The notes beneath the pieces were generated by a model. That model did not search any database. It had not been told where the DNA came from and worked only from the letters and a program-made list of their open reading frames with translations. 42,243 nt of DNA, taken from positions 1 to 42,243 of IMG/VR virus record IMGVR_UViG_3300025110_000035, one strand, 5' to 3'. Positions 3,166 to 39,445 of the stretch are shown in pieces (position 1 is the first letter of the stretch; each line of letters starts with the position of its first letter). This DNA comes from a virus. Made by a program: the position numbers and the translations under genes.

Positions 3166-3184
3166 GATTACGAAACTTTTTTAC

Positions 3185-12328: not shown

Positions 12329-12336
12329 TATTTAGG
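12329..12336 (-). promoter_or_regulatory. Degenerate late promoter core CCTAAATA before gp15
   Basis: Minus-strand CCTAAATA contains the TAA stop of gp14 and lies about 22 bases before the gp15 ATG. The second base differs from NATAAATA, but the same variant occurs before gp13 and, as TCTAAATA, before gp19. Confidence 0.45.
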
Positions 12337-21200: not shown

Positions 21201-22861
21201 ATTCTTCCATTATTAACACCATTAACGATAATTTGTTCATTTCTAATAAACTTACCACTTACTTCATAAACAGTTAATCCTACACCTGCAGTCACAGAAC
21301 CTTGTAAAAATGCAGTTGCACCACTCCTTTTTCCTTTAATATATGCAGGAACAGATTGAGTAATAGGATTATTTAATTCTAATTCAGTAAATGTTTGAAC
21401 ATCATATAAAGATAAGTCCCATTCATCCAAATTTGAATTATCAGAATTATATGATTGAGATTCTAATCTAAAATCATATACTCTAGCATATCCAATTTCA
21501 TTACCTGGAGCATTTTCAGAATTAGATCCCTTTCTTTGATCTCTTAAACTTAGAACATATGTACTACCAATACCTACGGTGGGAGTTCTATATACACTAT
21601 TCAACCTATAAGTTGGACCAGTGTTATAAACTATTGACTGATTCTCTATAAGTTTAGTAGTTCTTGGTTTTGGACAATCAATATATGTGGGATCTATAGT
21701 TTCAATCTCATAACCTTTTACATATGCCTTTCCTGGAGATATCTTATATAATGCTAAATCATCAGATGGAGTTCCACCACTAGGTGTAAATTGACCAGCT
21801 TTAAAAACTCCTCTATTTCCAATGTTATCATCTAATGAATTCATCAAAGTAACATCAAAAGGTTTTATATCATAGTTACCACTTTCATCATAAGTTCTTC
21901 TTGCAAGAGTATCTGTTAAGTCCCAACCACCAGATCCTCCACCAAATCCACCTATTAGTCCTCCACTACTACCTTTACCATTTCTACCACTCTTGGCAGT
22001 TCTTAAAACTCCATCTTTTATAGTACCTAATTCAATAAAACTTGTATCATCAAAATCATCTATAGGCTTTTTAAATAAACTTAAAGAAATCTTTAATCTA
22101 TCTGCACCTGGAGCAGCATAGTTATTATATCCCTGAGAATTATCATTCAAACTTTCATCAATATCAGCATTAATTATCTCTTCATTTACAAATAAACCCA
22201 CTCTACAATTAGGCTTTGTTCCATATTGATCAAGAAGAAGAGTCTCTTGATTAACATTACAGAATTGGCCATGAACAAAATATACACCTTCTTGAATTTG
22301 GAAAGAAGAACCTGTTATAGCGGAACCATCTGCCACACTAATAGCAAAAGGAGCACCTGCAGCAATTGTTGTATTACCTAATAACCCAGAAGAAATGATT
22401 TGATTACTAATTAACTCTTCACCATCAAAAAAAGTTTGAGAAGAATTGTTAGTTGTACTTGATGTTAAGTAGTTAACATATAATGTAAGTTGTCCTCTAT
22501 CAGAATCTTCAGGTAATAAAATACTATCAACAACAGCAGTAACACCCGACCTTTGCCCTGTAATTTTATTTCCTACTAATTGATTAGCATATGCAGATAC
22601 AGGAACACCCTGGTAATTATTGTTTACCTGAATACCATAAAAAATTTGATTATATCCTGTATTTCCTGGAATTACTTTAGCACCTTCTTTAAAAAAGTGC
22701 TTACCAAACCTCTCAATTTGATTTTGCAGCATAGACTGCAGAGTTGTTAGTTCTCTTGCCTGAACAGGGAATCCTGGTTTAAACAGAACCCTATAAAAAT
22801 CATCAGACGGATCATAGTCATCAAAATATGGTGCTACATTTAAATTTGTATTTTGAGGCAT
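15269..22861 (-). CDS. Giant DUF4815-type virion structural protein (2530 aa), in place of T4 genes 9-12
   Basis: The N-terminal part (about 1-450) matches what I know of the DUF4815 phage family: FYRVLFKPGFPVQARELTTL, LQNQIERFGKHFFKEGAKVI, and later SPGKAYVKGYEIETIDPTYI. A second recognisable block at about 1700-1880 begins WYDPLAQSFLVEDPGGVFVT and includes YLGSLFKSQNASTWEPSQWE. It is widespread in marine phage tail or fibre proteins. Between about 1900 and 2200 lie a GxGY repeat segment and a KIGDEVIQYNNVSGNVLTIA module shared with other proteins here. The C-terminus ends DQVYVPRVKDLRVMALA. It follows gp8 by seven bases and probably belongs to the baseplate periphery or tail fibre attachment; that role is inferred from position. 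T4 has no single counterpart. Confidence 0.93.
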   Translation of the reverse strand: MPQNTNLNVAPYFDDYDPSDDFYRVLFKPGFPVQARELTTLQSMLQNQIERFGKHFFKEGAKVIPGNTGYNQIFYGIQVNNNYQGVPVSAYANQLVGNKITGQRSGVTAVVDSILLPEDSDRGQLTLYVNYLTSSTTNNSSQTFFDGEELISNQIISSGLLGNTTIAAGAPFAISVADGSAITGSSFQIQEGVYFVHGQFCNVNQETLLLDQYGTKPNCRVGLFVNEEIINADIDESLNDNSQGYNNYAAPGADRLKISLSLFKKPIDDFDDTSFIELGTIKDGVLRTAKSGRNGKGSSGGLIGGFGGGSGGWDLTDTLARRTYDESGNYDIKPFDVTLMNSLDDNIGNRGVFKAGQFTPSGGTPSDDLALYKISPGKAYVKGYEIETIDPTYIDCPKPRTTKLIENQSIVYNTGPTYRLNSVYRTPTVGIGSTYVLSLRDQRKGSNSENAPGNEIGYARVYDFRLESQSYNSDNSNLDEWDLSLYDVQTFTELELNNPITQSVPAYIKGKRSGATAFLQGSVTAGVGLTVYEVSGKFIRNEQIIVNGVNNGRIAVGITEYSVSDVKSVYGTDDNLVGINTFSANVVPAILFNVGVATVGVQTFTGQSVIQSANENFPGITTIGNLVQYTDLNVSQDPVRGRVVSVGSSHLEIVGVTTVTNICDGTLPQTSVKSVTDLRILTSMLDRSSDNTLYTPLPKKNVSNVDLTSASIVIRKTFNVTIANGQISTPLPSIASDETFQPFTPKRYSLIGADGTTYDLTADQVDLSTSQQLQIRGLAAGTNTGTLVATIKKLKPKAKQKINNRVKSIVINYSKQRGAGVGATTLNDGLTYGSYPFGTRVQDEIISLNNPDVVAIHGIFESADSADPSCPKANLTSIITQSTTTNELIIGEQLVGQDSEAVAIVAEKITDSQIAILYKNEILLKEGETVTFQESNAQAVVSSLTSPSFAIGSNYTFADGGESTFYDYGIIKRKPDSDAPSKKIKIYFQSGSYDSGDNGDITTINSYDQFKYGFNIPRVDTHSCADIIDIRPRVVEISSVAQGDRSPLEFLGRTFTGSGDSAPNILASDESIVIDFSFYLPRIDRIFLNKNGEFQVKYGDPSEDPKKPVPVDDAIEIGDVGLPAYLYTTKDAALQFLNHRRYTMTDIKKLDTRIKNLEYYTTLSLLETNTANFFVPDQDGANRFKSGFFVDNFTGFQPQESKVKINNSIDRKRKELRPRHYTNSVDCVFGPVVGNDPNDDLQFSTIEGINVKKQEDVITLDYGEVEWIKQNFATRSESVTPFLISFWQGTMELNPASDTWVDTARLDAKIIQTEGNYAATMDNLARNEGVDPQTGMGPVVWNAWETTWTGQSAVEFDGAQSTTSNSNTWGQGGWINGEPDNNPAQWITETTTTTTQEVLRQTTRTDHQQRDGLRTIVHETFDEQSVGDRVVSRDLVPYMRSRNIEFVAKKVKPLTQLYAFMDGQNVTKYCVPKLLDVTMTSGTFQVGETVRGRVNNTGLSQITNDSIPEIQFRVSQSNHREGPYNVPTKTFRDNPYTNSALPASYSSTSDIVNVDTFSLSTEAQGAYYGWVESGMILEGQSSGALATINDVKLLSDVSAFCGGSFFIPNPNNINFPRFETGTKTFTLIDDADNNQDECNTLTDETYTAAGTLETVQENILSIRNARIEQRHEFQEQIVHTDLGTEVVGSNVVGQNSNQANTGWYDPLAQSFLVEDPGGVFVTKCDIFFRTKDDMDIPCVFQLRSMKNGFPTQHILPFAEIVLDPADVAVSSDGSVATTVEFKAPVYLEGGNTEYAIALASNSTKYSVYISRIGETDLLTDTFISNQPYLGSLFKSQNASTWEPSQWEDLKFTMYRADFEPNGTVEFYSPELTRGNNQIPTLRPDPLIINSRKVRVGLATTVADSYELGNTFSQDGTNATGNLVGAGGSATGALTIANIGIGYTPLDGNLTFTGVNLETVTGQGRGAVGNVYIANGQVGACTITSGGSGYEVGDVVGITTIGLSTGASGTVGRDGQFTIAGIGMTNEITLDNVQGNFATGAGKTMRYTNSAGVTTELNFSHGGNVTISSLDNESDGLHIKVNHQNHGMYDTENIVKISGVVGNVKPSKLSLALDVGNSSSFTVDDGSVYSNFENVGVGTTNIGLVKIGDEVIQYNNVSGNVLTIANRGSNKINYAVGTPVQKYELSGISLARINRNHGLSTSTSLATSGSIGFDSYNIKLDMSGEDNIDGISHNDTTDRSTDVGFPKLYLGQTQTSGGYQVRATQNMPFQIITPICHNMTVTGTTIGAEIRTTSATSLSGDEIPYIDQGWESITIGESNYLTSPRAVYSKVNEDDRLSNVEGNKSMQMRLTLGTTDPRLSPVIDAQRVSTILTSNRVNDVISNYATDNRVKSMKDDPTGCQYITKEISLENAATSIKILLAGHVHADADIRAFYSIGDKTGFQPIFTPFPGFDNLNNRGQVINAANNNGQSDSFVPKTNQYGFGDAVQFSDYTFTADDLPAFRYYRIKLLLISSDQVYVPRVKDLRVMALA

Positions 22862-22867
22862 GATTTT

Positions 22868-24424
22868 CTAGAATTGCAATACTATTTTGATATCTTCTTT
22901 TTGGTTAACTGACCTAGTGATAGCTGGTCTATTGTCAACAAAAATAATGTTGCCACTATGTCGTTTAACTTCAGGATTGGAAAGACCATCCGTAAAATTT
23001 TGACCAAGATAATATGTGATATTATTTATTACGGTAGATATACCTGTAAATGCACTATCAATTTGTAAAGTTGATCCAGCAGTAGGAACAATTTCCAAAT
23101 TACCTCCTGTTCCAGGAGAAGCAGTGAATTTATTTAAGTTATAACCATATGTAGGAGCAGTTTGTGCAGTTCCAACAGTATTGAAACCAGCCATTGTCCT
23201 ATCTTGCCAATACTTTAAAACACCTGTAGTTGCATCATAATTAACAACTCTTCCTTGAGCTGTTGATCCAGCAGAAATTGTTTGTACAAAATAACTATCA
23301 GCCTCAAATGTAGCAGAACTATAACCAGAACCTGCTAATCTTAAAGCATTTACAGCACTTGCCTTATCTGCACTTAATAATGCAGTAGAGTCATATTTTT
23401 GAGGATTCTCTACTAACCCAACTCTTGCAACTTGGTTACCAGTAATAAAGTCGGGGTTTTCATTATCATTTTCAATTCGAGAATAAATGAGAACATTCAT
23501 TGCTCCCAACTCTCTATAAATGTCAGAACCGTGTCCCCCTTGAGGTGGAATAATAACATCAAAAGTTGGTATTGTAGTTCCTGTGGGAACTCCACCATCA
23601 TCTAATGCCACACTACCATAAGTATATCCTGATCCCTGTTTAGTAACAGTTATAGTATCAACCTGTTGGTCGTTAGTGGTAGTAATTGTGCATTCTGCAC
23701 CTGAACCATCTCCTTTGATAGGAACTTTAGTATACTCAGTACCACCAGAAGGTCCAATAGTTTCTCCACGAGCAGTAATAGTAATTATTTTAATAGATCC
23801 ATCTACAGCATTATCTCTCACTGCTGCATCATCTACATTAGTATCCCAATTCAAAGGAACTGGCATAAAATCAGTAGAATCAAATTTAATAATATCAGCA
23901 GGTTTAATAGTATAAAGATATTTCCAGATATAATTATCACCACTACTTCCAGCATTTCTTGGCTCTAAGTCAGTAAATGTTGGTTCATCCAATGAAGGTC
24001 TTCCATTTGGGTTATCTGGATCAGTACCATTTTGAAGACAAATATAAACCCTATAATCAGTGTTTATAACATAAAAAGTACTGGCATATAAATTTGTTGC
24101 ACCAGAAACAGGGGCAGTATTTGATCTACTATAATCACCTCTATACATGTCATATGTTGTACCAGATGACCATGTTCTTTTCTTAACAACCTGTCTACAA
24201 TCTCCTGCAGCAACTTTCTTCAAAGCAACCATATCATCCCAATAGTCATTCTCTTCCGAAAAATTATCTTTCGGAGAAGGTGGATCATTATTCCAATCGG
24301 AATCAAGATCAGTAGGATTTGGTAGACCAATAAAGGAATAATATGCGTTAGTAGTCGAAGTTACTCCCGCAACAAAATTACTTGCATTCAACAATCTAAT
24401 CTGGTCAGTTATAATTGCAGCCAT
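22868..24424 (-). CDS. 8: Baseplate wedge protein gp8 (518 aa)
   Basis: The N-terminus (MAAIITDQIRLLNASNFVAG) and the early block YDMYRGDYSRSNTAPVSGAT correspond to gp8 of T4-like cyanophages. The C-terminal RHSGNIIFVDNRPAITRSVN, followed by QKEDIKIVLQF, parallels the end of T4 gp8 (RHSGEMIYMENRPPIIMAMD and so on). T4 gp8 is 334 aa and acts as a dimer in each wedge, joining gp7 and gp10. Here 518 aa leaves extra sequence around residues 215-450, with GxGY-type repeats (VTKQGSGYTYGSVAL) and Thr/Gly-rich segments. A CATAAATA late core lies 20 bases before the ATG at 24424; the ribosome-binding site is weak. The 2530-aa gene follows after seven bases. Confidence 0.93.
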   Translation of the reverse strand: MAAIITDQIRLLNASNFVAGVTSTTNAYYSFIGLPNPTDLDSDWNNDPPSPKDNFSEENDYWDDMVALKKVAAGDCRQVVKKRTWSSGTTYDMYRGDYSRSNTAPVSGATNLYASTFYVINTDYRVYICLQNGTDPDNPNGRPSLDEPTFTDLEPRNAGSSGDNYIWKYLYTIKPADIIKFDSTDFMPVPLNWDTNVDDAAVRDNAVDGSIKIITITARGETIGPSGGTEYTKVPIKGDGSGAECTITTTNDQQVDTITVTKQGSGYTYGSVALDDGGVPTGTTIPTFDVIIPPQGGHGSDIYRELGAMNVLIYSRIENDNENPDFITGNQVARVGLVENPQKYDSTALLSADKASAVNALRLAGSGYSSATFEADSYFVQTISAGSTAQGRVVNYDATTGVLKYWQDRTMAGFNTVGTAQTAPTYGYNLNKFTASPGTGGNLEIVPTAGSTLQIDSAFTGISTVINNITYYLGQNFTDGLSNPEVKRHSGNIIFVDNRPAITRSVNQKEDIKIVLQF

Positions 24425-24443: not shown

Positions 24444-24451
24444 TATTTATG
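24444..24451 (-). promoter_or_regulatory. Late promoter core CATAAATA before gp8
   Basis: Minus-strand CATAAATA lies 20 bases upstream of the gp8 ATG and overlaps the last codons of the 4326-aa gene. It gives gp8 and the 2530-aa gene their own start after a 13-kb gene. Confidence 0.68.
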
Positions 24452-27400
24452 GTAATTTATAAAGTTTATATTTAAGAGACCTAGATCTTCTTACTACAGG
24501 AGAAGTTGAAATACCTCCTGTTCCACCTAATGTATATGCATCATATGCATTTTCTTCAGATCTTGAAGCAAAAGTCAATTTACCCCAACTATAAGAACCG
24601 AAGTAATTTCCAGTTTGGATACCTACTCCACTAAAGCTAGGCCATTGTCCATTCCAATCAAGATGTTCAGCAATTTTAACAAAGACTCTACTCATATGAG
24701 TAGTTCCAATTCCAACTCCATCAGAGGCAACACCCGTAGGAGATTGAACTATCTCAAAGTTATTTACCTCATATACATTATTAACAAACTGAGTTCCAAT
24801 TCCAATTACAGCACCATCAGCAGCAAGAGAACCAATAGATGTATCAGCTACTCCAACATTAGAATCATTAACAACAAAGTAATCACCAGTACTAATTCCA
24901 CTAATTGTAACTGCAGTTCCAGCAATATTGGCATCTCTTAATTGAGAATCAAGAGGAATATGCATATCAAATATTAATTGATATCCTGTAGCAACTCCAA
25001 CAGTTGTAGTACCAAATCCAACAATTATTCCAGAATCACCAGTGTAACTACCTACTGTATTTTCTTCTTCAGACCATACAGGAGGACTAATAAGAACAGA
25101 TGGTGGATTGGATGAAGTATATCCAGCACCAACGGAAGTAATTGCAATACCAGTAATAGTACCAGCAGCACTAATTACTGGAGTTCCATATGCTCTAGTA
25201 GATGTTGTAACAACACCTACTTCTGTATCACCGATAGAAGTAGATCCAAAACTTACCACTGCAGTGCTATATCCAATACCACCAGTAGAGATAGCAACAG
25301 AAGTAATAGTTCCTAAACCAGAAACAATAGCAGTTCCTGCAGCACCAGATCTTACTTCCTGAGAAATAAATTTAACTTTCTTCTGGAAATCATGAGCAGT
25401 AGCAGAAGGACTTGGATCATCAACCTCATCATAAGGATTGAAGTAAGGTCTTACATTTTCAACATAAACAATAGTTGATCCTATACCAACCGACTTAATG
25501 ATTGGTGAATATGGATTAATTACAGGTTCATAGATTTCCCTATCCTTACCTACACCCTTTTCATTAATAATCTTATCTTCCATTTGCCTACACCAAGCAA
25601 TAGGTCTTTCCAAATTAGGATCGGCAACATTACCTGGTCCGTAATATGGAGGTGTAGCAACACGATCAGTAGATTCTAAACTAAGAGGAACTCTAGTTTT
25701 TTCTGTTAACCAGAAATCTTGAGAAGGTAAATGTTTGATTTGTAAATCATCACCAGGTTTAACTGTTTCTATAATCATTCTCTCAACAACATCTTGAGAT
25801 CCAGTTCCTTTATAGAATAGTATTTCTATACTATCACCTACTTTAGGTGCTTCTGTAAATGTAATAGTACTACCACCTGGGAAGGTATAACCTTTACCAG
25901 GAACTTGAGGTATATCATTAACAAATACTAATAGAAGATCTTGTTCAATAATCTTAGAACCTTTCTTACCTCTAATTGTTAAAGTACCATTATCACGAGT
26001 TAATGGGAAATCTTTTCTAGTCCCAGTAATATATTTTTCAACATTATCTACTGTTTCAAATTCACCCATAGACCAACCAGTAAATTCATCATAGAAACAA
26101 GGGTCAAGTGTAAGTTGGAATTCCTTATAGGTCTTAGAAGGATCGGTAGGAATACCAGTAGGACCTCCAATAGGAATTGTTAAAATTTCATCATTACCAT
26201 AACCACTTCCTGTGTTAGTAATTCTAAAGCTGATTATACTTGATCCTTGTCCAACAACAACATCAACTACACCACCTGTTCCAACTCCACTAACAGAATC
26301 AGAACTATAAGTTAAAGCAATACCTGCATAAGGTAATGGAGCATCAACAATAACCTTAAGTGGTCTTCTTACAACACCACCTCTATTATAAAGATGAGGA
26401 TTAGTATTAATTCCTGTATTAACTACAAACTTAGTAGTATCGATTACTTGAAGTACGGGTGTACCATTATAAGCAGGATCACCATCAGTATCAGTACTAT
26501 TAGACTTTCTAGGTGCAACAATCACTTTCTGAACTGTACCACCTGAAGTGTATTCCATTGCAGTACTACTTGTACCTACTTGAATAACAAAACTAGTAGC
26601 ATTTGGAACAGAACTAATTCTGGAACCTGTGTAATATGGATCTGATGATCTTGGATATGTAATATTAGTACTACCTTCAGTAACAGCTAATCCAGTAAGA
26701 ATTATATCATCATCTGCTGAATATCCATGAGCAGCAGAAGTAGTAACTGTTGCAATACCAGTTGCTTTAGTATAAACAAAATTACTTAATGCTTTAGTGC
26801 CAGAATAGTTACAAGTAAATGCAATACCAGAAAGAACTGCTTCCTCACCTAATGAGAATCCATGAGCACTAGATGTAGTAACCGTAGTTAATCCAGTAAC
26901 TGTATTATATCCTACATTAGAAACAAAAACAGGTTTGTTAAAGACATATCCATTAGTAATAGCAATACCAGAGATAAATCCACGTTCTGCAATAATAGCA
27001 GTTCCAATTCCTATTACACTTGTGCCTGGTAATGTTGAAGTTTGAATAGCAACATTACATACAGTTTGAACTCCTACTCTATAACCAGAACCAGTATTGG
27101 CAATACTTACAGACTCAATAGTACCTGCTGTAGAAACAACTGCAGTACCTCCTGCTGCTACTAATGGTTGATAACCAAATCCTTCAGTAGAAGCAACTGA
27201 AACAATAGCACCACCTAAAGGAAGTGTTCCTACATTAGGATCACTGGCAACAGAACTTCCTGTTCCTGTAAATGATATAGTAGTAATACCAGTAGTCGTT
27301 TGAGCTAAAGTATAGTTATTATCAGATCCAGGTATTTGGAATACGTCATTAACGAGAATAATTGCATTGTCTGTAGTCAATCCTGCAACATTTCCAGCAT

Positions 27401-30400
27401 CTGATTTAAGTGTAAAGTCTGCTTTTTGTCCAGTAAATTGAGCAGAAAGACTATCAAAAACATAGTTCCTATAATATGTCTCTTCTACAGTATCTGGAAC
27501 ACCAGATCTCATAAACATTCTTCCTTCAAAACTAGATCCAGTTGAAATACCAACCCAATCTCTATCATCAGGTCTGTTTGTAGCAGTACTTAATGGAACA
27601 TTACCACTTGGAGCAGCAACAAAGTTAATAGTATTATCAACAATATTATAATTACCAACCACTTTAGTAACTACAGTTGCAGTGCTATATCCAGCAAGTG
27701 CTGTTCCCATCCAAGGTCTTCTAACCTGTAACCTATTAGTAGCACCTATACCAACACCATCTACTCGCATTAATTCATTACCAACCTTAATCAAGTCTCC
27801 ACCAAAGATTGAAGTAATTCCTGAAAGAGTAATAAACTCATCAGTAGTTAAAACTTGAGAAGTTAAATGATTTGTAACTGCAGTTGCAACAATTGGAGAT
27901 TGAATTATATTATCAATCGATACCAAAAGTTTTGCATTCTGATTATGTGCAGTAAATCTATGAGAAGTTCCTATACCTACACTCGTAAGATCTACAACAT
28001 CTGGAATAGTCTTAAGTGCTTTCTCAGGAGTTTCTGCAAGTTTAATAGTGTCATCATCAATCTTAACAGCATATACTGTGGCAGGAAGTTTATTGGTTGT
28101 ACCAACTCCAACAAATCCACTAGTTGTTGCAACACCAACTGCCATTGTCTTACCAGCACCAGCATGGTTGTATGAAAGTTTTTCTCCAGTAACAAAGAAG
28201 TGGTTTGGTAGGACAATAACATTATCATCAGTTTTTACAATAGAACTATCTGCACCGAGGAATGATTTATCAAAGATATTATCAGTTCTATGCTTTAATT
28301 CAAATTGTCTCTTAACAGCACGATCAGTTCCTTCATAATCACCAAATCCAGATTCTATTGCACCATTTTCAAAGTCAATTGTATCTTTAAGATCATCTTC
28401 AATTTTTAATACATTACTCCATACATTTGTTTGAACATCCATACTTGCATTAGGAGTAAATACGATGGACATTGTTCCAGCAGCTGAAACCCTACTTCCA
28501 ATTGTTCCCAAACCTGCATTACCAGAATAAACATTACCATATTCAACATCATAACTTTCTTGTGTTTCATCCTGAACAAAATCATTAACACAAAGGAATT
28601 CAGACATTTGATATGCTTTATTGGTGCAATCAGTAACCTGAACATAACAATAAGCAGCTTGATAATCAGGTGGATATTCAGCTATAATATTTTCAATTGG
28701 AGATGTTGTAGAACCAATACCAGTACATCTAGACTCAAGAATAGAATGCTTTAATTCTACTGTTGATATTCCACTATATTCAGAAGATGCCATTCCAACT
28801 AACATGGTGTTAATAGCACCAGTAGTACCAATACCAACACCAGAATTTGGATGGAAATCAATTTTTAATAAATCATTCTCAATATATCCATGATAAGTTC
28901 CCATACCATTAGGAGTTACATATCCTTCCGTTATATTCGTAGATAATCGACCATATTCCATTAAATCAACAGTAGTTCCATCATGAATAATATTAAATTG
29001 ATTATATTCAAATTCTTCACGATTAATATCAGGATTAATTGATACCATTACATGAGCAGACCTATAAGTGCTTGCAATACCTACAATTGTTGTAGTACCA
29101 ATACCAACACCAATTGCTGCACTTTCAGTATCCACAATAGAAGGTCCAACGACTGTGCTTCCAGTGCTTAATGCATTATCATCCAAATTAAAGGAAAGAC
29201 TAGCAATCCAATAATCATTAACAGAGAATTTTACAGGATACCATCTCAACTCACCCAAACTACCAGAAATTGCGAAGTCAAAATCACCTTGATCATAAAC
29301 AGTATCTATTTTTCCATATTGGTTAAGATAACCAAAATCATTATCATGAACAATGTCAACAATAGTTAATTGTCTTTGAGCAGTGAATCTCTTATCTTTT
29401 ACATAAAGGAAATACTTTAATGCTCTTCTTTCTGCTAAAGTCCAAGAAGCAACTGTTGTATATCGAGTAGATCTTGGGAAACTATTAAATGTTCCACTAA
29501 AGTCATCAATTGAAACTGCTCTATTTCCAATCGATTCGTCATAATCTTTTAAAATTCTACTAGAGAAAGTTATTTCGGTAGAAACAGTATCATTACCAAT
29601 AATTAAACCATTTTCAGAAGCAAGATCAAAATCTTCAACACAATTCATATTAACTATGGAGAATTGTTCTGCAACAATACCATAAGCTGATAATTCAGTT
29701 GATAAACCAACCTTCAATGAATCTGTATCATCTGGAGTAGATTCTAACTGATAATCACTAAACTTCTTAAATCCTATTGTGTGATTTAATGTAGAAACAG
29801 GATCATCCCATACATCTAAGTCAACTCTCGAACTTAATGAGTATGAAAGGTTTTGATAGTAATCACTATCTTGGAATCTCTGTAAAGATCTATTAAAGAA
29901 TCCTGATTCTGTCTCCCAACCACCTTCTACTCTAGCAGTAGCACCTAATGTAAGATAAGCATCAAATGATTTAATAGATGAAGCAACTCCTTCAACCCCA
30001 GAAGCACTACCAACAATAATATCACCAAGTACAAAATCTTTCTGTGCAGAGATTCTTAGAATTCCAGTATTAGCACTCCAAGATTCAACTATTCCTGTAG
30101 TACTACTTAATGTACCTGTAACTGTTTCTCCTACAACATAATCACTTGAATCAGTAAGATCAATTCTAAATTTAGGGAAATTTTTCTGAGAAACAATTCT
30201 TCCAGCAGAGTTAACAAAATCAAATTGTCCTGGTGTTAACTCAGGAGCTAAATCTCCAAAGAAATCAGTAAGGTTATAAGTGATACTTCCAATACCACCA
30301 TAATTTTCCTCTATACCTGTTATATTAAAGAGTTTATAATCATATCCAGCAGAATTATATCCCCTTCCTGTCGATCCAACACCTACACTAATACCTTCAA

Positions 30401-33400
30401 TATATACCAATTCTCCAACTGAAAATGGGAAGGTATCTGCAGTACTATATCCAACCTGCAATTCAACTGTTACATCTTTACTAACTGTATTAAATCCAAC
30501 AGTGGAAATACCAACACCATTACTGTTGTGTATAGGAACTACAGTAGGAGGTGCATCATGCATACCAAATGTATTTTGCAAAATTTCTACATTTGGATTT
30601 CCTAGTTCATAAGATAATTTTAAATCTAAAACTGGTTTTCCAGTAAATCCATCAATTACAACTAAATCTGGATTAGCATTATAACCTCTACCAAAGGAAG
30701 TTACTCCTACTTTCTGTACAGATTTAAGAGCATCAAGCTGAATGATTTGAGGCATTGCAGCAGATGGCATTAATGTTGGATCAGATGGGAAATCATATCC
30801 AATATCAGAAAGTGTTACTGTTTTAATCTTACCTATAGAAGTACTAACTCCAGAAATAATTGCATTAGTTCCTAAAGCACTCTTAATAGTTGTAATTCCA
30901 GGAAGATTATAATAATTCTCACCTGGATTCTTTATTTCAAATGCAGATATTTCACCATATGCACTATCACTAGTAGTTTCATAAGTTAAATCAGATAATG
31001 CTCCATAAGATGCTCTTTCTGGAATCTTAGATAAAGTATATGTAAATTGATTGGTAGCAGCTATCGTAATCTTTTGACCATTCTCTCCACCTTCATTATA
31101 CAAACTTTCTAAAATTTCTATTTGATTTCCCGAAATAACCTCTTTATCTACTGAGATTTCTTTCTTTACATCAGGAAGATTACTATCATAAAGAGGATCT
31201 AATTTGTAGAATAATTCATGAGGAACTTCTTTTGTGACTTTTAAAGTAACATTAGCATTTGTCGTAATACCAGGAGCTCCATTTCTTACAACATTAAAAT
31301 CTTTAGTTAATGTAGAAGTATCCCAAATCTTAGTAAAGTTTTCATCCCTATAGAAATTTAATTTAAACGCAGAATAATCAGTTGACTGATTTACATATGA
31401 TAATGATGAATCGGAAAGATCAAATACTGCACTACAATCTTTATATAATTCTATTCGAGGATTTATTGGATTAATTGTACCACCATCACCAGCACTAGTA
31501 ATTCCAACTATAGGTGGTTTAGATTCAACTGATTCATGATATGTTGGAGATAATTTAATTGTATTATCATCAATTCTAACAATGTAATATATGTCATTAT
31601 CAGACAAACCACCAGGTACAGCAGATGCTACACCTACAGTATGAATAATCTTATCACCAGTCTTATATCCATGATTTGTTATAGTTAATTCATTAGTAGT
31701 TGTGTTTACTCCAGATGCTGCAAATGTCTTAGGATTGATTACAACATTTCTGTTATAATCATTATACTTAACTACAATCGAAGTTTCTATACCTGGACTG
31801 ACATTCATAAAGACTCTTTGATCATTTAATAGACCATGAGTTTCTCCAGTCGAAACAGTAACCTTAGTCCTATTAATTTCACCAGTAATAACATTATAAT
31901 TTGTTTTAAGACTGTGATATACTCCAGTTCCTATTCCAGCAAAGAAGAACGTTGTACTGTCCCTCTGTGTGCTTGCAATGCCCACAAAAGTACCAGTGGT
32001 ACCTAAACCTACCCTACAAGTAGATAACCCAAGTATGTCATCATTAACTCTTGCTGCAAAAAGAGTTTGTCCGTTTATTAATGTTTTTACCCCTGTTCCT
32101 GCTTTACCATCTTCCCAAATAGTAATACCTGTTCCATTACCAGGTGAATAAGTTAATTGATCACCAGTTATCAATCCATGTTGAGGAAGATACATTTCTT
32201 TGGTCTTCACATAAAGCATTGTTAGACCAACACCAGGATTAGAGAAGTGAAGTGTACTACCAATACCAACACCAGATAGAGTGGTTACACCAACAGTTTC
32301 TTTAGGTTCAAAGTATATCTGGGTGTTTTGTTTCCATTCATAACTTGAATTAATACCAGCACGAACAACCACTTTACGAGGGTCTTCAAGCAATATTGAT
32401 GTAACGGTATGAGATACCCCTGTAACCCCGTTGTAACCCCGTAGAACCCTTATTCGTGATAGATTATGATCTATGTTCAATACTTGAACTGTTTCCGTTC
32501 CTATACCTAAAATATCGTTAGGTCTGATAGCTGGGAATTTCAAATCACCTTGAACATGGAAATGAGTAATTATTCCTGTTGCACCATCAGTTCCAATAGC
32601 AACTGCAGTAGTTCCTATACCAGTTAAGACAAGACGATTTGAACTAATACCTGCATTATAAGTTCCTTCAATTTTAGATGAAGTTGTGGATAAACCCGTA
32701 ACATTCATAATGTCGGTATTAATCCAATTAATAGGTTCATCGTTTACAAGAGTATAATCACCTTTTTGTGGACCTGGATAAACTTCCAATCCACTTATTG
32801 AACTTGTAGCAACACTAACACCAGTAACATCTTTACCAACAAGTCTAGAAACTGCTGCAGCAGCCTTACCACCACTAGTTCCTTCATTATTGAATACTAT
32901 AGTATCACCAACTTTATAGTTCTTTCCACCTGTTGTAATTCCAATACTCTCAACAACTCCTGGAGCAACTCCTTTAAGATCTATATGTTGTTTGAGTTTA
33001 TTGGGAAGAGGCATATACTGATATTGCTCATCACCCTCAATCAAATTATATGGTGCAGTATTTCTATACCAATTAGTACTCCATGTAGCATCTTCCTTTC
33101 TATCATCTTGAGTAAGGAATCTTCTATCCTTTCCTTTAGTTAATAGATAATCATCTTGATTAGAATATTGTGTAAAGTTAAATTCTTCAGGTGTTGATTG
33201 ATAATTATCACCTATAAGATATGGGAATACGGGTAATTTATAACTATTGAATTGTCCACCCTGTTCAGCACCTGAATCATTAATAGTTGCGAAATAAGCA
33301 TATACTCCATTTGGATATTGTGGAGTAATACAAAATCTTCCGTTGTTGGCATCTAAAACAGTCTCATCAGTTTTTTCTTTAAAGGTAAAGTCTTCAGCAA

Positions 33401-36400
33401 AGAATCCTGGTCCAAAAATAGTTAATGGTGGTCTATTTGTTTTACTTGCAGATTCTTCTACATATCCAGATTTCATCTGAGTTACAGATCCACCTTCCTT
33501 TTTAACATATCCATAAGGACCGTAAATTGGATTTCCATCATATGCCCATCCAATAATAGGAGAATGATCAGCAGATTCAATTTCTTGTCCATTAACCCGT
33601 TTTAAGTCTGGTTGACCATATAAAGATACTCCCTCCTGATTCGTCGCATACATGCCCTCTCTGAGTTTCCTGGGAGCATATAAATGAGTATACTGAAGTC
33701 CATATCCTTTGTTTAATCCATTTACAATAATTCCATCGTCAGATGTTATTTGTTCACCTTGATAATATTTTTCAAATAAATTTATACTCCATTGTTGAAG
33801 ATTAGTCCTAAGTTTTACTTCAGTTCCTGGAGAGAGAACAGTAATAGAAGTAGTTGATGTGCCATATCCAGCTCCTTTATTAAGAACCTTAACTTCTTCT
33901 AAAAGATATGTTGCAGTAGTTCCAACTCCTACAGTTTTAAGAATAGGGGTTAATACAGCACCAAAACCAGGTCCGTTTATTTGAAGATCAGGAGGAGCAA
34001 TATAATCTTTACCCTTATACTTAACATAAACTTCAGTAATAGATCCACTATTAACAATAGGAATAACTTCTGCTCCAGTACCTGAAGATAAAGTTACATC
34101 AGGTTCTCTATCAAAATTAATAACTTCAGAAGACCCATATCCAACTCCCTTATCAATTAAATGAATAGATGTAACTTCTCCTCTGAATATAGGTTGGATT
34201 TTAGCTTCAAATGTTTCTACTCCAACAGATGTTACTCCCACCTTTCCTTTTACTTCTACACTAATAGGAGGATAATTAAATTGATGAGTTCCTACCCCAA
34301 TATAAGTAAGATCACGATATTGCTTAGTTCTATAATAGAAATCTTTAGCAGTAGTTCCTACACCAACACTTGTTAATCGGAAATTATCTTTATCAACTAC
34401 ATTAACATAATAATCAGTAGAAGTAGTTAATCCAGTAATAGGAGTTCCTGTACATGTGTAATTAATAACCTCTCCAGATTTGTAATCATGATTTTCAATT
34501 TTTATTGCATCTGTAGATGTGTTAATTCCTGCAGGTTGTGATGTTCTCTTCTTATTTTCATATCCTGAACCACTAGTAATTACATTAATAGATTCTACAA
34601 TAGATTTTGTATTATAAGCTTTTATGTGCTGTACACCATCACCACGAGCAGTGAGTACAACAGTATTAATACCAGCTAAAGCACCTGCTTCACCAGTATG
34701 GAGTCTTACTACAGTTCCACCTGTTCCAACTACAGAAACCCAATAACTAGCATCACTTGTTAATCCAGCAATAACACTTTGACCTTTAGGGTCATATATT
34801 ACCTTTTCACCATTAGCAAATTTGTGATAAGTTGAGAATCCAATTGTAGATGGTAAATCTCCTGTTGTACCAAGTCCAACTTTACTAGAATTTGAGAAGA
34901 AAGGAACAGTATGCGTCACTGACTGCATATTTACACCAACAGTCGCACCTTTACCATTTCCTCCAGTTATTGTCACTACAGGAGTTTCTTGATATCCAAA
35001 ACCAGGATCTATAAGTCTTATATCTTTAAGAGCTCCTTTAACAGCAACACATCCTGTAGCACCTGTACCAACAGCATCAGCAATTCTAGGAATAGGAGGA
35101 TTAATTACATCATATCCACTACCTCCCCCAAGAACATCTATTCCTGTAATTTCTCCATAATGAATTTTATCATAGGATTTATAATTTAAAATTTCTACAC
35201 CATTTGCAAGAATACCAGTAGAACCTGGAGTAGTTTCATATACAGTTCCTGTATTAATCGGTGGATTAATTGATCTTACAAGTTTTTGTGATCTTAAAGT
35301 CTCTCCATTAAAAGTAAAAGGTTCAATTCTATTATCTGTTACAATTCCTACATTATCAAGAGATATATAATTTTCAAAATAAAGGTCAGACCTACTTTTT
35401 GCAAGTTTAATACTATTTGCATCTACTCTCTTAACAAAATAAAGACCTTCTGAATTAGAGAATAATTCGGATTTAATAACGTAATTATCTAATTGAGTTC
35501 CACTGGTAGTATCTACATAAACTTCATTAATTATCTGGGGTGTATAGTAGATAGCATCTCCAGTATAATATCCGTGGTCAAAAATAGGTACACCAACAGG
35601 AGTAGTAGCATCGGCAATTATATTAAAAGTATCTCCCTCAAAACTTCCATTAAAGATAATTCTATTCGCATTAACACCCAAAGCAGAAGCATCATATGAT
35701 GGAATGGAAGGAGATGTAATTAAAAGTTTATCTTCTACTCTTTCTTTATAAACATTTTGAACATCACTAGAATATACAGATGCTTCTGGGAAGTTCAGTG
35801 CATTAACTTTTGCAATCTTTCTTTCAATTATATAAGGATTATCCTCAAGATAACGAGTAACATCAATTTCTCCTTGTTCTTTCATAATGAAAGATTTTGA
35901 AGAAGTTATTTGACTTATAAGAGAAGGTGGATAAGCAGTTCTTGCATCTGCAGATCTAGAAAGGACTGCCCTATCACCTACTTTAAATCCATGATCAACA
36001 TCAGTGAATACTTCATATGTCCAGTCTGAAACGTCAATTAATCCTAGTTGTTTTACTTTATAAGTTGGTGAAACATTATAGAACCAATTATCTAATCTAT
36101 AATCAGTATTACCAATTCCTAAAGTTTTGAGTTTTATACTATCTCCACTTCCATAAAGACAACTTGCTTTATCATATTCTAAATTATGAACAACGGAAGT
36201 AATTCTTACTTCAATAGTTTCATCTGGATTAACTACAGACTGTCCATATGCAAATGTATTAATACCAACTGATTCTGCACTTGTAATAGTTTTACCAATT
36301 CCACTTAGTCCAAAGAATTGAGTTAGGTTTTTACCTGTGTATGAACTTATACCTACACTACCATCAATATATCTCCAATGGAGTTCTCCATCTGTTGCAA

Positions 36401-37427
36401 ACCCAACTGTTGAGTCTACATCAAAAGTAGTAGCTCCTGCTGCTACTGCACCAACTATCCTAGTTCTAGGATGAGTGTTAAATGTACCATAAGTAGCACC
36501 TTCAACCCTTGAGTCTCTATTATAACCAGCATCTACACTAAACTTATAGAATGTCTCTCCAACACCCACTGCAATCTTTTCTACATGGGTTATAGGAGCA
36601 TATGCCTTCTCTAGGTCAGAACCTTCATACTCATCTTGGAATAAAGTAGATAATTCCAAATTCATTGGATCACCTACAATAGGCTCTACTACAAAATCTC
36701 TTGTAATTTTATAGTTGGCATTAGATGGAGTGAAAAGAAAATCACGAGGTCTTATAATGTTTACTTTTTCGTTATATAATGCTTTAAATAATATTTCAAA
36801 ACCTCTATCAGTTCCCTTACTTAAATAAAAGTCCTTTGACTGTTTTAAGAAAACTTCTTGATTTAATTCAGGTGTAAGTTGTCTTCCTTCTAAACCTGGA
36901 GTAATTTGATGCTTTGTTTTAGTTAAAAACTCCTTTAAGAATAAACAACTTAAATTTTCTATAGTTGATCCTTTAGGATGTTGTTCTGCTGTTGTAGATT
37001 CAAAAACTAACTCTTCAGCATTGGTAGGACTTCTATAAGAAGTAACACCACTAAATCCTCTAACACATCCAGTAAATCCAAAAGTAGTTATTCCAGTATA
37101 TGTAATAATTTCATCATTAATTTTCAACAATCCATAAGAATCTGGAAATCCCAACGTTCCTGTTGGGAAGTTCTGCATATCAATATCAATTGCATCACTT
37201 GCAATACCAACAGTTGCACCTAAACCAACAGATTCTGTAAGATTAGTAAGATTATCTATTTTTACGTATTGGTCAATATTATTAACTAAATCAACTGGAC
37301 CACCTTGATATTCCTGACCTTGATAATATGATTTTAAAAACTCTGCGACTAGGGGATAATCGGATCTTACATATCCAGGAAGTTGATTCTGAACTATGTT
37401 GCTAAACTTAACTCTTTTTGATGTCAT
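24447..37427 (-). CDS. 7: Giant gp7-position baseplate protein with YHYH domain and many beta repeats (4326 aa)
   Basis: The order gp6 - this gene - gp8 equals T4 6-7-8. Residues about 195-225 (SKDFYLSKGTDRGFEILFKA, then LYNEKVNI) resemble the C-terminal part of T4 gp7 as I remember it (DFYSTKG...FLFKVLYNEEV). The start, MTSKRVKFSNIVQNQLPGYV, precedes a LVAEFLKSYYQG helix. T4 gp7 is 1032 aa; this is about four times as long. The added length holds GxGY repeats, a YHYH-type domain from about residue 1280 (HSPIIGWAYDGNPIYGPYGY at 1288-1307), dozens of VGxGTT motifs, and three related modules at about 2650-3000 also found in the 710-aa protein. The frame is open for 12,981 bases. It probably forms the wedge plus outward extensions. 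Gene symbol by synteny. Confidence 0.85.
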   Translation of the reverse strand: MTSKRVKFSNIVQNQLPGYVRSDYPLVAEFLKSYYQGQEYQGGPVDLVNNIDQYVKIDNLTNLTESVGLGATVGIASDAIDIDMQNFPTGTLGFPDSYGLLKINDEIITYTGITTFGFTGCVRGFSGVTSYRSPTNAEELVFESTTAEQHPKGSTIENLSCLFLKEFLTKTKHQITPGLEGRQLTPELNQEVFLKQSKDFYLSKGTDRGFEILFKALYNEKVNIIRPRDFLFTPSNANYKITRDFVVEPIVGDPMNLELSTLFQDEYEGSDLEKAYAPITHVEKIAVGVGETFYKFSVDAGYNRDSRVEGATYGTFNTHPRTRIVGAVAAGATTFDVDSTVGFATDGELHWRYIDGSVGISSYTGKNLTQFFGLSGIGKTITSAESVGINTFAYGQSVVNPDETIEVRITSVVHNLEYDKASCLYGSGDSIKLKTLGIGNTDYRLDNWFYNVSPTYKVKQLGLIDVSDWTYEVFTDVDHGFKVGDRAVLSRSADARTAYPPSLISQITSSKSFIMKEQGEIDVTRYLEDNPYIIERKIAKVNALNFPEASVYSSDVQNVYKERVEDKLLITSPSIPSYDASALGVNANRIIFNGSFEGDTFNIIADATTPVGVPIFDHGYYTGDAIYYTPQIINEVYVDTTSGTQLDNYVIKSELFSNSEGLYFVKRVDANSIKLAKSRSDLYFENYISLDNVGIVTDNRIEPFTFNGETLRSQKLVRSINPPINTGTVYETTPGSTGILANGVEILNYKSYDKIHYGEITGIDVLGGGSGYDVINPPIPRIADAVGTGATGCVAVKGALKDIRLIDPGFGYQETPVVTITGGNGKGATVGVNMQSVTHTVPFFSNSSKVGLGTTGDLPSTIGFSTYHKFANGEKVIYDPKGQSVIAGLTSDASYWVSVVGTGGTVVRLHTGEAGALAGINTVVLTARGDGVQHIKAYNTKSIVESINVITSGSGYENKKRTSQPAGINTSTDAIKIENHDYKSGEVINYTCTGTPITGLTTSTDYYVNVVDKDNFRLTSVGVGTTAKDFYYRTKQYRDLTYIGVGTHQFNYPPISVEVKGKVGVTSVGVETFEAKIQPIFRGEVTSIHLIDKGVGYGSSEVINFDREPDVTLSSGTGAEVIPIVNSGSITEVYVKYKGKDYIAPPDLQINGPGFGAVLTPILKTVGVGTTATYLLEEVKVLNKGAGYGTSTTSITVLSPGTEVKLRTNLQQWSINLFEKYYQGEQITSDDGIIVNGLNKGYGLQYTHLYAPRKLREGMYATNQEGVSLYGQPDLKRVNGQEIESADHSPIIGWAYDGNPIYGPYGYVKKEGGSVTQMKSGYVEESASKTNRPPLTIFGPGFFAEDFTFKEKTDETVLDANNGRFCITPQYPNGVYAYFATINDSGAEQGGQFNSYKLPVFPYLIGDNYQSTPEEFNFTQYSNQDDYLLTKGKDRRFLTQDDRKEDATWSTNWYRNTAPYNLIEGDEQYQYMPLPNKLKQHIDLKGVAPGVVESIGITTGGKNYKVGDTIVFNNEGTSGGKAAAAVSRLVGKDVTGVSVATSSISGLEVYPGPQKGDYTLVNDEPINWINTDIMNVTGLSTTSSKIEGTYNAGISSNRLVLTGIGTTAVAIGTDGATGIITHFHVQGDLKFPAIRPNDILGIGTETVQVLNIDHNLSRIRVLRGYNGVTGVSHTVTSILLEDPRKVVVRAGINSSYEWKQNTQIYFEPKETVGVTTLSGVGIGSTLHFSNPGVGLTMLYVKTKEMYLPQHGLITGDQLTYSPGNGTGITIWEDGKAGTGVKTLINGQTLFAARVNDDILGLSTCRVGLGTTGTFVGIASTQRDSTTFFFAGIGTGVYHSLKTNYNVITGEINRTKVTVSTGETHGLLNDQRVFMNVSPGIETSIVVKYNDYNRNVVINPKTFAASGVNTTTNELTITNHGYKTGDKIIHTVGVASAVPGGLSDNDIYYIVRIDDNTIKLSPTYHESVESKPPIVGITSAGDGGTINPINPRIELYKDCSAVFDLSDSSLSYVNQSTDYSAFKLNFYRDENFTKIWDTSTLTKDFNVVRNGAPGITTNANVTLKVTKEVPHELFYKLDPLYDSNLPDVKKEISVDKEVISGNQIEILESLYNEGGENGQKITIAATNQFTYTLSKIPERASYGALSDLTYETTSDSAYGEISAFEIKNPGENYYNLPGITTIKSALGTNAIISGVSTSIGKIKTVTLSDIGYDFPSDPTLMPSAAMPQIIQLDALKSVQKVGVTSFGRGYNANPDLVVIDGFTGKPVLDLKLSYELGNPNVEILQNTFGMHDAPPTVVPIHNSNGVGISTVGFNTVSKDVTVELQVGYSTADTFPFSVGELVYIEGISVGVGSTGRGYNSAGYDYKLFNITGIEENYGGIGSITYNLTDFFGDLAPELTPGQFDFVNSAGRIVSQKNFPKFRIDLTDSSDYVVGETVTGTLSSTTGIVESWSANTGILRISAQKDFVLGDIIVGSASGVEGVASSIKSFDAYLTLGATARVEGGWETESGFFNRSLQRFQDSDYYQNLSYSLSSRVDLDVWDDPVSTLNHTIGFKKFSDYQLESTPDDTDSLKVGLSTELSAYGIVAEQFSIVNMNCVEDFDLASENGLIIGNDTVSTEITFSSRILKDYDESIGNRAVSIDDFSGTFNSFPRSTRYTTVASWTLAERRALKYFLYVKDKRFTAQRQLTIVDIVHDNDFGYLNQYGKIDTVYDQGDFDFAISGSLGELRWYPVKFSVNDYWIASLSFNLDDNALSTGSTVVGPSIVDTESAAIGVGIGTTTIVGIASTYRSAHVMVSINPDINREEFEYNQFNIIHDGTTVDLMEYGRLSTNITEGYVTPNGMGTYHGYIENDLLKIDFHPNSGVGIGTTGAINTMLVGMASSEYSGISTVELKHSILESRCTGIGSTTSPIENIIAEYPPDYQAAYCYVQVTDCTNKAYQMSEFLCVNDFVQDETQESYDVEYGNVYSGNAGLGTIGSRVSAAGTMSIVFTPNASMDVQTNVWSNVLKIEDDLKDTIDFENGAIESGFGDYEGTDRAVKRQFELKHRTDNIFDKSFLGADSSIVKTDDNVIVLPNHFFVTGEKLSYNHAGAGKTMAVGVATTSGFVGVGTTNKLPATVYAVKIDDDTIKLAETPEKALKTIPDVVDLTSVGIGTSHRFTAHNQNAKLLVSIDNIIQSPIVATAVTNHLTSQVLTTDEFITLSGITSIFGGDLIKVGNELMRVDGVGIGATNRLQVRRPWMGTALAGYSTATVVTKVVGNYNIVDNTINFVAAPSGNVPLSTATNRPDDRDWVGISTGSSFEGRMFMRSGVPDTVEETYYRNYVFDSLSAQFTGQKADFTLKSDAGNVAGLTTDNAIILVNDVFQIPGSDNNYTLAQTTTGITTISFTGTGSSVASDPNVGTLPLGGAIVSVASTEGFGYQPLVAAGGTAVVSTAGTIESVSIANTGSGYRVGVQTVCNVAIQTSTLPGTSVIGIGTAIIAERGFISGIAITNGYVFNKPVFVSNVGYNTVTGLTTVTTSSAHGFSLGEEAVLSGIAFTCNYSGTKALSNFVYTKATGIATVTTSAAHGYSADDDIILTGLAVTEGSTNITYPRSSDPYYTGSRISSVPNATSFVIQVGTSSTAMEYTSGGTVQKVIVAPRKSNSTDTDGDPAYNGTPVLQVIDTTKFVVNTGINTNPHLYNRGGVVRRPLKVIVDAPLPYAGIALTYSSDSVSGVGTGGVVDVVVGQGSSIISFRITNTGSGYGNDEILTIPIGGPTGIPTDPSKTYKEFQLTLDPCFYDEFTGWSMGEFETVDNVEKYITGTRKDFPLTRDNGTLTIRGKKGSKIIEQDLLLVFVNDIPQVPGKGYTFPGGSTITFTEAPKVGDSIEILFYKGTGSQDVVERMIIETVKPGDDLQIKHLPSQDFWLTEKTRVPLSLESTDRVATPPYYGPGNVADPNLERPIAWCRQMEDKIINEKGVGKDREIYEPVINPYSPIIKSVGIGSTIVYVENVRPYFNPYDEVDDPSPSATAHDFQKKVKFISQEVRSGAAGTAIVSGLGTITSVAISTGGIGYSTAVVSFGSTSIGDTEVGVVTTSTRAYGTPVISAAGTITGIAITSVGAGYTSSNPPSVLISPPVWSEEENTVGSYTGDSGIIVGFGTTTVGVATGYQLIFDMHIPLDSQLRDANIAGTAVTISGISTGDYFVVNDSNVGVADTSIGSLAADGAVIGIGTQFVNNVYEVNNFEIVQSPTGVASDGVGIGTTHMSRVFVKIAEHLDWNGQWPSFSGVGIQTGNYFGSYSWGKLTFASRSEENAYDAYTLGGTGGISTSPVVRRSRSLKYKLYKLP

Positions 37428-37444
37428 TGGATATCTTTCTTATC

Positions 37445-39445
37445 TTAGTAGGATGAAGCAGCAGATGTGCTAGGAACAGAAGATGTGGTGGTAGTATTTG
37501 TTGTATCACTATTACGACCCCCCGCACGAACTAGGTTGCCATTGGCATAACTCGAAGAGGTAATATAATTTGAACCAGATGGATCTAAACCAGAGGCAAT
37601 TTCATCCACAACAGTTTCAAATAAACTATTACTAATATCTAGTTGCAAATAAAGATCCTGTAATCCAATAACATCATTAGAAAGAGGACATGCTGAAATT
37701 TCAATTATGGTTTGACCATCTTTTATCATTCCAGATTGCACATTAATAGGATTAATAGTAATAACCCCACTCTTATAATCAATAGTTCCAATATTTCTTC
37801 TAATTATAGTAGGGGATTGTGACTCTACAGAAGGAAGTGAGAATAAGAATAATGAACCAGTTAATTTATTGGTATTTGGTAAATCAGAAATATAAACATC
37901 ATCCATTACTCCTGCCACTTTAAATGCAGATGACTTAATATTATATCCACTCATACTCTTAATATGGAATTCATTTCCAAAACCAATTTGATACTCTGCA
38001 AAGGCATTTAGTACTGCTCTTATATCTCTTCTTATATAAACCGTAGTAATATTGGATGTTATTGCTTCATTACTCTGATCAATAATATTCAAGAACTTAC
38101 TATACTTAAATCTAGCACCATATTTGTTCATGTCAGAAGATTCAGCATATTTTTCAGCATTATTCTGAACTATTGAAGAAACATATGCTGCAGTAGGAGC
38201 AAGATTGGTATTATAATAGATTTTTGTATTAACTTCGAGGTAAAGATACTTCAAATCAAGTATTTCTGGAACAATTCCTGCTACAGCATACTTTTTCAAC
38301 TTTAATTTTATCTTTTCTTTGATCAAACTTGGTAAAAAGTCACCAGTTCTTGGTTTTATACTAATAAAGACCTTTCCAAACTGAGGAGGCACTAAATCTT
38401 CACCTCCAAAAACAGAAATTGACTCAGTTTCGGGATAAATTCGTGATGGAATTAAAGATTCATAGTCATTTGAGGTTACTGCTCTGTTTTGAGAAGAATA
38501 AATCCTTGGAGCAAACTTTCTAACCGATTCTACCGACTCAATACCCTCTCCACCTGATGCAGATAACCCAGTTGTCATTAAAGAGATGCCAGAACTAATA
38601 TCATATGATTGAGAATTACGAGTATACTCAATTCTACCTGCAAAATTGAAAGAACTCAGTCCATTTGCAGCATCACCATCAGAAGTGATGTAATTTATTG
38701 TAATAAAGTTACCATCTTCTAGTGCTTTTCCAAAAATACCGTCTCCAAAGAATATTTGATATCTTTCATCTTCAATTTCCTGTAAATAATAAACTTTTGA
38801 GTCAGAATTTACATCAAAAAGACTATTTTGAATACTATATTTGGTTTCTGTGGTGGATGCTTCGTTTGGACGTACTGAAACAGTGATTAAATCAGTATCA
38901 ACTCCAACATTTGGTAAAATAAACTTCTGATTTGGAATTCTTGATGAATATGTGAAGGTTTGTGTTAAAAGAACACCTTCAAAAACCTCAACATCGTTAA
39001 ATTCTGCAATTCCATTAAAGACTGCAACCGTAATATCACTTAAAATTGAAAAAATGAAGGATTGACCACCAAATGCTGTTGATGATGCTGCCACAGGACC
39101 CTTCTTAAGAGTTAATGTAGCAGGTGCAGGGTTAATTCCACTCGTATTTACAAAGAATGATACAGTTGCTCTTGCTGCTTGTCTGGGACGGGGTACATAT
39201 CCTATATTTCTTGCTAACGAAACTATATTTTCTCTTAAAGTTGCAGTATCAATGAACACTTCATTAGTGATCATGTTCGCATTATAAGAAGTAATGTAAG
39301 TATTGTATGCCAAAACGTCCAAAATCGTCGAAAGGTTAGACCCATCGAAGTCATAATCAGTAAAATTAGAGTTCGATTTTAGATATTCTTGTAAAGTTGA
39401 CTTAACTTGGTCAAAATCCAAGTTAGAAAAGTTAGCTAATGGCAT
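37445..39445 (-). CDS. 6: Baseplate wedge protein gp6 (666 aa)
   Basis: The N-terminus MPLANFSNLDFDQVKSTLQE and the following DGSNLSTILDVLAYNTYITS and NEVFIDTATLRENIVSLARN blocks are classic gp6/J-like wedge sequence. The length of 666 aa is close to T4 gp6 (660 aa). Gp6 dimers form the continuous inner ring that holds the wedges together, contacting gp25, gp53 and gp7. The last 40 residues are Ser/Thr/Gly-rich (SGSNYITSSSYANGNLVRAG and on) and probably flexible. The ATG at 39445 follows the gp25 stop by two bases, so the genes are coupled. No internal stops or frameshifts. Confidence 0.97.
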   Translation of the reverse strand: MPLANFSNLDFDQVKSTLQEYLKSNSNFTDYDFDGSNLSTILDVLAYNTYITSYNANMITNEVFIDTATLRENIVSLARNIGYVPRPRQAARATVSFFVNTSGINPAPATLTLKKGPVAASSTAFGGQSFIFSILSDITVAVFNGIAEFNDVEVFEGVLLTQTFTYSSRIPNQKFILPNVGVDTDLITVSVRPNEASTTETKYSIQNSLFDVNSDSKVYYLQEIEDERYQIFFGDGIFGKALEDGNFITINYITSDGDAANGLSSFNFAGRIEYTRNSQSYDISSGISLMTTGLSASGGEGIESVESVRKFAPRIYSSQNRAVTSNDYESLIPSRIYPETESISVFGGEDLVPPQFGKVFISIKPRTGDFLPSLIKEKIKLKLKKYAVAGIVPEILDLKYLYLEVNTKIYYNTNLAPTAAYVSSIVQNNAEKYAESSDMNKYGARFKYSKFLNIIDQSNEAITSNITTVYIRRDIRAVLNAFAEYQIGFGNEFHIKSMSGYNIKSSAFKVAGVMDDVYISDLPNTNKLTGSLFLFSLPSVESQSPTIIRRNIGTIDYKSGVITINPINVQSGMIKDGQTIIEISACPLSNDVIGLQDLYLQLDISNSLFETVVDEIASGLDPSGSNYITSSSYANGNLVRAGGRNSDTTNTTTTSSVPSTSAASSY

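Follow-up and report, generated by a model that had tools for sequence, protein, structure and literature searches.

The stretch of DNA analysed here (the window) is a 42,243-base virus fragment, IMG/VR metagenome record IMGVR_UViG_3300025110_000035, and nearly a third of it is taken up by a single gene for a giant protein, by sequence an orthologue of the bacteriophage T4 baseplate wedge protein gp7. The frame starts with ATG, runs for 4326 codons with zero internal stops and covers 30.7% of the window, which bears out the preliminary description of about 31 percent in one open frame. The predicted protein has a mass of 466 kDa, an isoelectric point of 4.9 and a composition rich in G, T, V and S. 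As also described beforehand, it lies in the gp7 position and is about four times as long as T4 gp7 (4.2 times its 1032 residues), with gp6 and gp8 on its two sides. All identified genes of the window point leftward and form a T4-type tail and head-completion module (gp25, gp6, the giant gene, gp8, a DUF4815 protein, neck proteins, terminase, sheath, tube, and portal), and the order gp25-gp6-X-gp8 is that of the gp7 slot in T4-like tail modules. The window phage is a T4-like marine cyanophage and, judging by kinship, its putative host is a marine picocyanobacterium. The features of the giant gene, followed by its neighbours, are:

24447..37427, minus strand: giant gp7 orthologue, 4326 residues (single open frame; PHROG 2885 matched end to end; collinear orthologue in phage RN05-S)
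36618..37427, minus strand: core half A, residues 1-270 (hhalign against the T4 gp7 family; PDB-wide profile search)
36708..36878, minus strand: motif A, residues 184-240 (KQSKDFYLSKGTDRGFEILFKALYNEKVNIIRP), corresponding to about T4 gp7 730-758 (one match per protein in core-bearing gp7s)
29910..36707, minus strand: insert between the motifs, residues 241-2506 (motif gap of 2266 versus 10-2796 in relatives)
33279..33581, minus strand: YHYH-like domain, residues 1283-1383 (PF14240, E 1.6e-19, model positions 87-183 of 193)
29718..30155, minus strand: core half B with the preceding beta module, residues 2425-2570 (hhalign, blastp, PDB-wide profile search)
29748..29909, minus strand: motif B, residues 2507-2560 (one match per protein in core-bearing gp7s)
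24450..29747, minus strand: C-terminal extension, residues 2561-4326 (GxGY modules and fibre-like VNxxxQxP modules at 3169, 3359, and 3836)
39448..39849, minus strand: gp25 (PHROG 261)
37445..39445, minus strand: gp6, the presumed core partner (PHROG 219, E 1.6e-187)
22868..24424, minus strand: gp8 (Pfam Phage-Gp8 and PHROG 438)
15269..22861, minus strand: DUF4815 ('VrlC') protein, 2530 residues (PF16075)

A phmmer search of the whole 4326-residue protein against PDB returned zero matches, and profiles were needed to relate it to T4 gp7. The hhalign values on which we rely were obtained in local mode, since half A went unnoticed in long slices when the alignment was global. A profile of half A (window residues 1-270 and relatives) aligned with the T4 gp7 family with a score of 69.0 (E 3.9e-8), compared with 23.1 for the best of 60 column-shuffled profiles, and when searched against all of PDB (177,635 sequences) it retrieved T4 gp7 as its top match (E 1.8e-6, T4 residues 729-758). 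A profile of the compact relatives likewise placed both solved gp7 sequences at the top of the PDB search (E 2.3e-9 and 2.3e-8), through two stretches in the same order. Neither the half A nor the half B profile matched T4 gp5, gp6, gp8, gp9, gp10, gp11, gp12, or gp53 by hhalign, and no second gp7 was found in nine complete cyanophage genomes, where the core halves are confined to the gp7 slot. Gene order, the profile match to T4 gp7 and the lack of any other gp7 in complete relatives thus lead us to conclude, from sequence comparison, that the giant gene encodes the gp7 orthologue. This is what the preliminary description had anticipated when it likened a segment near residues 195-225 to the C-terminal region of T4 gp7 (residues of about 190-225 correspond to T4 729-758), proposed a profile search of the N-terminus and considered a separate gp7 homologue encoded elsewhere.

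The same description placed a conserved wedge core at the N-terminus and took the rest for a huge grafted extension. The first part holds for one half of the core; the second half was missed. The C-terminal core of T4 gp7 (residues 643-913) is present as two collinear halves, of which half A (residues 1-270) corresponds to T4 residues of about 643-796 and half B (2425-2570) to about 820-913. Half B matched T4 gp7 820-897 with a score of 47.8 (E 7.8e-6; best shuffle 25.4) and contains motif B, with the pattern ..DYYQNLSYSLSS..W..V..LNHTIGF.., equivalent to about T4 862-891. Two compact relatives, from Pelagibacter phage Mosig and Methylophilales phage Melnitz, match the giant at residues 7-257 and 2430-2558 with nothing significant in between, and by blastp they recover half B directly (E 5e-12 and 1.8e-6, respectively). 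The assignment of half B draws on profile-profile comparison and on these intermediates rather than on a strong match in any single database. Models of motifs A and B each find one match in every core-bearing gp7 examined, whereas the lengths between and behind them vary. The gap between the motifs is 10 residues in a 291-residue form, 103-106 in five T4-like phages, 253-589 in compact forms, 1579-2796 in the giants and 2266 in the window protein; behind motif B lie 16-3761 residues across the gp7s examined and 1766 in the window. Since motif B sits at residues 2507-2560, the core itself is interrupted by about 2,270 residues, which leaves only about 1,766 as a true extension.

The first 100-160 residues or so of the insert (giant residues of about 240-400) resemble the small beta domain in the T4 linker of about 105 residues; a slice comprising residues 201-500 aligns with T4 735-894 by hhalign, and later slices do not. 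This resemblance makes linker expansion the best description of the growth. A third growth site follows the first helices and precedes motif A; there P-TIM40 and syn9 carry about 500 extra residues. No slice of the giant, including those from the insert and the tail, has a counterpart of T4 gp7 1-640 (hhalign, local mode). These N-terminal domains are also absent from the core-matching relatives of 291-896 residues, so that they are a feature of the T4 branch and do not define the wider family.

The window gene is a typical representative of the abundant and already catalogued family of giant cyanophage gp7. PHROG 2885 ('baseplate wedge subunit', 4179 positions) matches residues 2-4320 with 3698 bits, and the first 476 residues are matched in 486 phage records, nearly all of them cyanophages. 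The complete isolate genome of Synechococcus phage RN05-S encodes a 4337-residue protein with 37.5% identity over giant residues 1-3494 and further matching pieces to 4324. Other giants in the same slot occur in S-RIM32 (3411 residues), S-CAM9 (3884), ACG-2014f (4225), P-TIM68 (4307), P-HM2 (4454), P-SSM2 (5195, annotated as gp7), syn9 (6076), and P-TIM40 (7351), and compact forms in Mendera (503), Mosig (874), and Melnitz (896), while three viral contigs (L206, L210, and L215) have gp7 forms of 291-314 residues that match T4 gp7 652-933. Most cyanophages examined have proteins of about 3400-7350 residues, a range in which the window protein is mid-sized; with relatives in the slot spanning 291 to 7351 residues, its size is unremarkable. 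The 291-314-residue forms, with motifs 10 residues apart, are the smallest that we have seen and would be good targets for structural work. At the other end, P-TIM40 gp7 (L099:1083-23138) is encoded in one frame of about 22 kb, 12% of the genome, and is annotated only as a virion structural protein.

The beta-repeat modules that had been described downstream of the core are there in a loose sense. A GxGY-type beta module occurs in 11 diverged copies in the giant, and close internal repeats are lacking, self-BLAST returning the self match only. The GxGY-type module is also found in a gp14-like protein (12332-13768, three copies) and in gp8 (22868-24424, one copy), recurring across virion proteins in the manner of a mobile unit from which the tail is built. 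An RGFxG-type beta module is present three times in the giant (residues 122, 1663, and 3236), the first time (window 36948-37205) inside half A, past the first helices and ahead of motif A, close to the point where the extra residues of syn9 and P-TIM40 sit. The insert also contains the YHYH-like domain, whose PF14240 match scores 71 bits against a curated cut-off of 25. The core pattern of this domain is shared by ten of the 11 other core-bearing cyanophage gp7 genes (ACG-2014f being the one without) and by none of the compact or T4-like gp7s. In B23 (L094:4409-16188) the part from about residues 3010-3019 onward is a gene of its own, and S-SSM7 (L097:3062-22156) has a two-gene form with the break near 3231-3245, in both cases behind motif B; these natural two-gene forms indicate that the C-terminal part of the giant is separable. 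Elsewhere in the window, the DUF4815/VrlC protein (15269-22861, minus strand), with 2530 residues against the 2056 positions of its PHROG profile, is a second enlarged tail protein in this phage, and a gene for a 710-residue tail-fibre-like protein (PHROG 28263; 8682-10814, minus strand) lies between those for the small and large terminase subunits.

Our overall explanation, to which we give a probability of roughly 0.8, is that the giant is a T4-like gp7 orthologue whose split core rebuilds the wedge scaffold and whose insert and extension contribute the outer baseplate. By analogy with T4 and the Vibrio phage XM1, halves A and B would meet in the folded protein to form the gp7 part of a (gp6)2-gp7 wedge scaffold and would pair with two gp6 chains, with one giant gp7 in each wedge and six in each baseplate. 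T4 has six copies of gp7 (PMC3004832), and at this number the giants would add about 2.8 MDa. With less confidence, the insert may loop out of the core and, together with the C-terminal extension, make up the outer baseplate, holding fibres or touching the host, so that the giant would do the work for which T4 uses the N-terminal domains of gp7 together with gp9-gp12. XM1 gp17, a gp7 orthologue, acts as a scaffold through a helix-turn-helix and binds spikes by a core-domain loop and its C-terminus (PMC10457771); this is the same logic as that proposed for the insert and tail of the giant, the equivalence of the sites being putative. Only tentatively, and with the odds somewhat against it, do we suggest that the insert (about 2,100-2,800 residues in nearly all examined giant cyanophage gp7s, with its degenerate YHYH-like domain) is a distinct outer layer replacing T4 gp9-gp12. 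If so, a single polypeptide, folded from segments that lie apart in the sequence, would serve as both wedge scaffold and host-contact layer.

Several observations weigh against this explanation. The two best PDB-wide matches of half B are gp7, but only at E 0.05-0.08. AlphaFold models of the 291-residue relative and of window residues 1-350 were unusable (mean pLDDT, a confidence score, of 46.8 and 38.3); a Foldseek search with the former put the gp7 chains 9f4a and 5iv5 in the top two places (E 6e-3 and 0.06, respectively), a result that we do not count as evidence given the poor model. YHYH domains have been proposed to be metal-dependent hydrolases whose metal site may include the YHYH motif (PMC7824862), and the YHYH string is absent from the giant and from every gp7 examined; we therefore call the domain YHYH-like only and consider a hydrolase role in gp7 doubtful. 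In some relatives a fibre-connector gene of its own still stands between gp7 and gp8, and the gp9-gp12 functions may not have moved into the giant; the placing of insert and tail at the periphery is argued by analogy.

Other explanations account for part of these data. The wedge core could lie complete at the N-terminus and be followed by a single long extension, the 2425-2570 match being just another beta module, as half A alone gives the strongest T4 gp7 match, giant residues 201-400 align through the T4 linker beta domain and the 201-500 slice reaches T4 894; we consider this improbable, because the W..V....H..GF motif (T4 862-891) sits at 2507-2560, once per protein, and motif B trails motif A by 10-589 residues in the compact relatives. 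Even less probable is that the DUF4815/VrlC protein is the functional gp7 and the giant a fibre-like virion protein, the reading that follows from the statement that cyano- and pelagimyophages lack T4 gp7 and apparently use VrlC in its place (PMC7029224) and that would suit the placing of related giants under 'virion structural protein' by PHROG. The VrlC profile has no similarity to the T4 gp7 family by hhalign and the giant carries both core halves in the canonical slot, so we rejected VrlC as gp7; that similarity is lacking and the core halves occur solely in the gp7 slot of the nine genomes contradicts the published statement.

A fusion of a gp7 of about 3,000 residues with a downstream fibre or connector gene, whose last 1,300 residues or so act separately, perhaps after a putative cleavage, has more in its favour, namely the gene boundaries in B23 (from about 3019) and S-SSM7 and the position of the fibre-like modules in the last part of the giant. 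We nevertheless think it rather unlikely in view of the single frame in the window, RN05-S, P-TIM68, and others, and it is in any case compatible with a split core. An assembly artefact, in which the frames of several genes were wrongly joined, might be suspected in any metagenome contig such as this IMG/VR record; its chance is negligible, as collinear single frames of 4225-4337 residues in the separate genomes of RN05-S, P-TIM68, ACG-2014f, and others already refute it.

A split gp7 orthologue also bears on the published picture of these phages, in which gp7 is listed with the non-cyanophage core and its divergence remarked on (PMC3037559). Relatives of the giant are known from virions: S-SZBM1_208, a 'baseplate wedge initiator' of 6619 residues, was detected by mass spectrometry with 71 peptides (PMC9146016), and S-CREM2 ORF122, a giant homologue, with 91 unique peptides (PMC10665884). 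The baseplate picture is corrected, in that the cyanophages and the pelagiphage tested do have a gp7, with a discontinuous core, and exact segments can now be searched for in a cyanophage baseplate map. The range of 291 to 7351 residues offers a testable case of a scaffold protein growing at fixed insertion sites. The split core may already have been described in literature beyond the open papers that we searched.

Among known systems, the nearest complete relative is the RN05-S 'baseplate wedge initiator' (XYR95743.1, 4337 residues), collinear over almost its full length; between its gp7 and gp8 genes RN05-S carries a separate gene for a fibre connector, which the window lacks at that place. 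Prochlorococcus phage P-SSM2 gp7 (YP_214343.1) occupies the same gp6-gp8 slot with the split core, the YHYH-like core pattern and an insert of 2222 residues (2266 in the window), at about 28% identity, and continues for some 900 more residues behind motif B. The Mosig (QOI69069.1) and Melnitz (QZI94887.1) proteins, annotated as 'hypothetical protein', have the same core halves, N-terminal and with beta modules between them, and just 364-382 residues separate their motifs. T4 gp7 (PDB 5IV5) shares with the window both C-terminal core halves and the gp6-gp7-gp8 order; it differs in having about 640 N-terminal residues that the window protein lacks and about 105 residues between the motifs, with neither the YHYH-like domain nor the giant insert. 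Finally, XM1 gp17 probably works like the window gp7, as a scaffold carrying peripheral spikes through a core loop and the C-terminus, although it is far smaller (242 residues), its spikes are separate proteins and the likeness drawn here is one of function.

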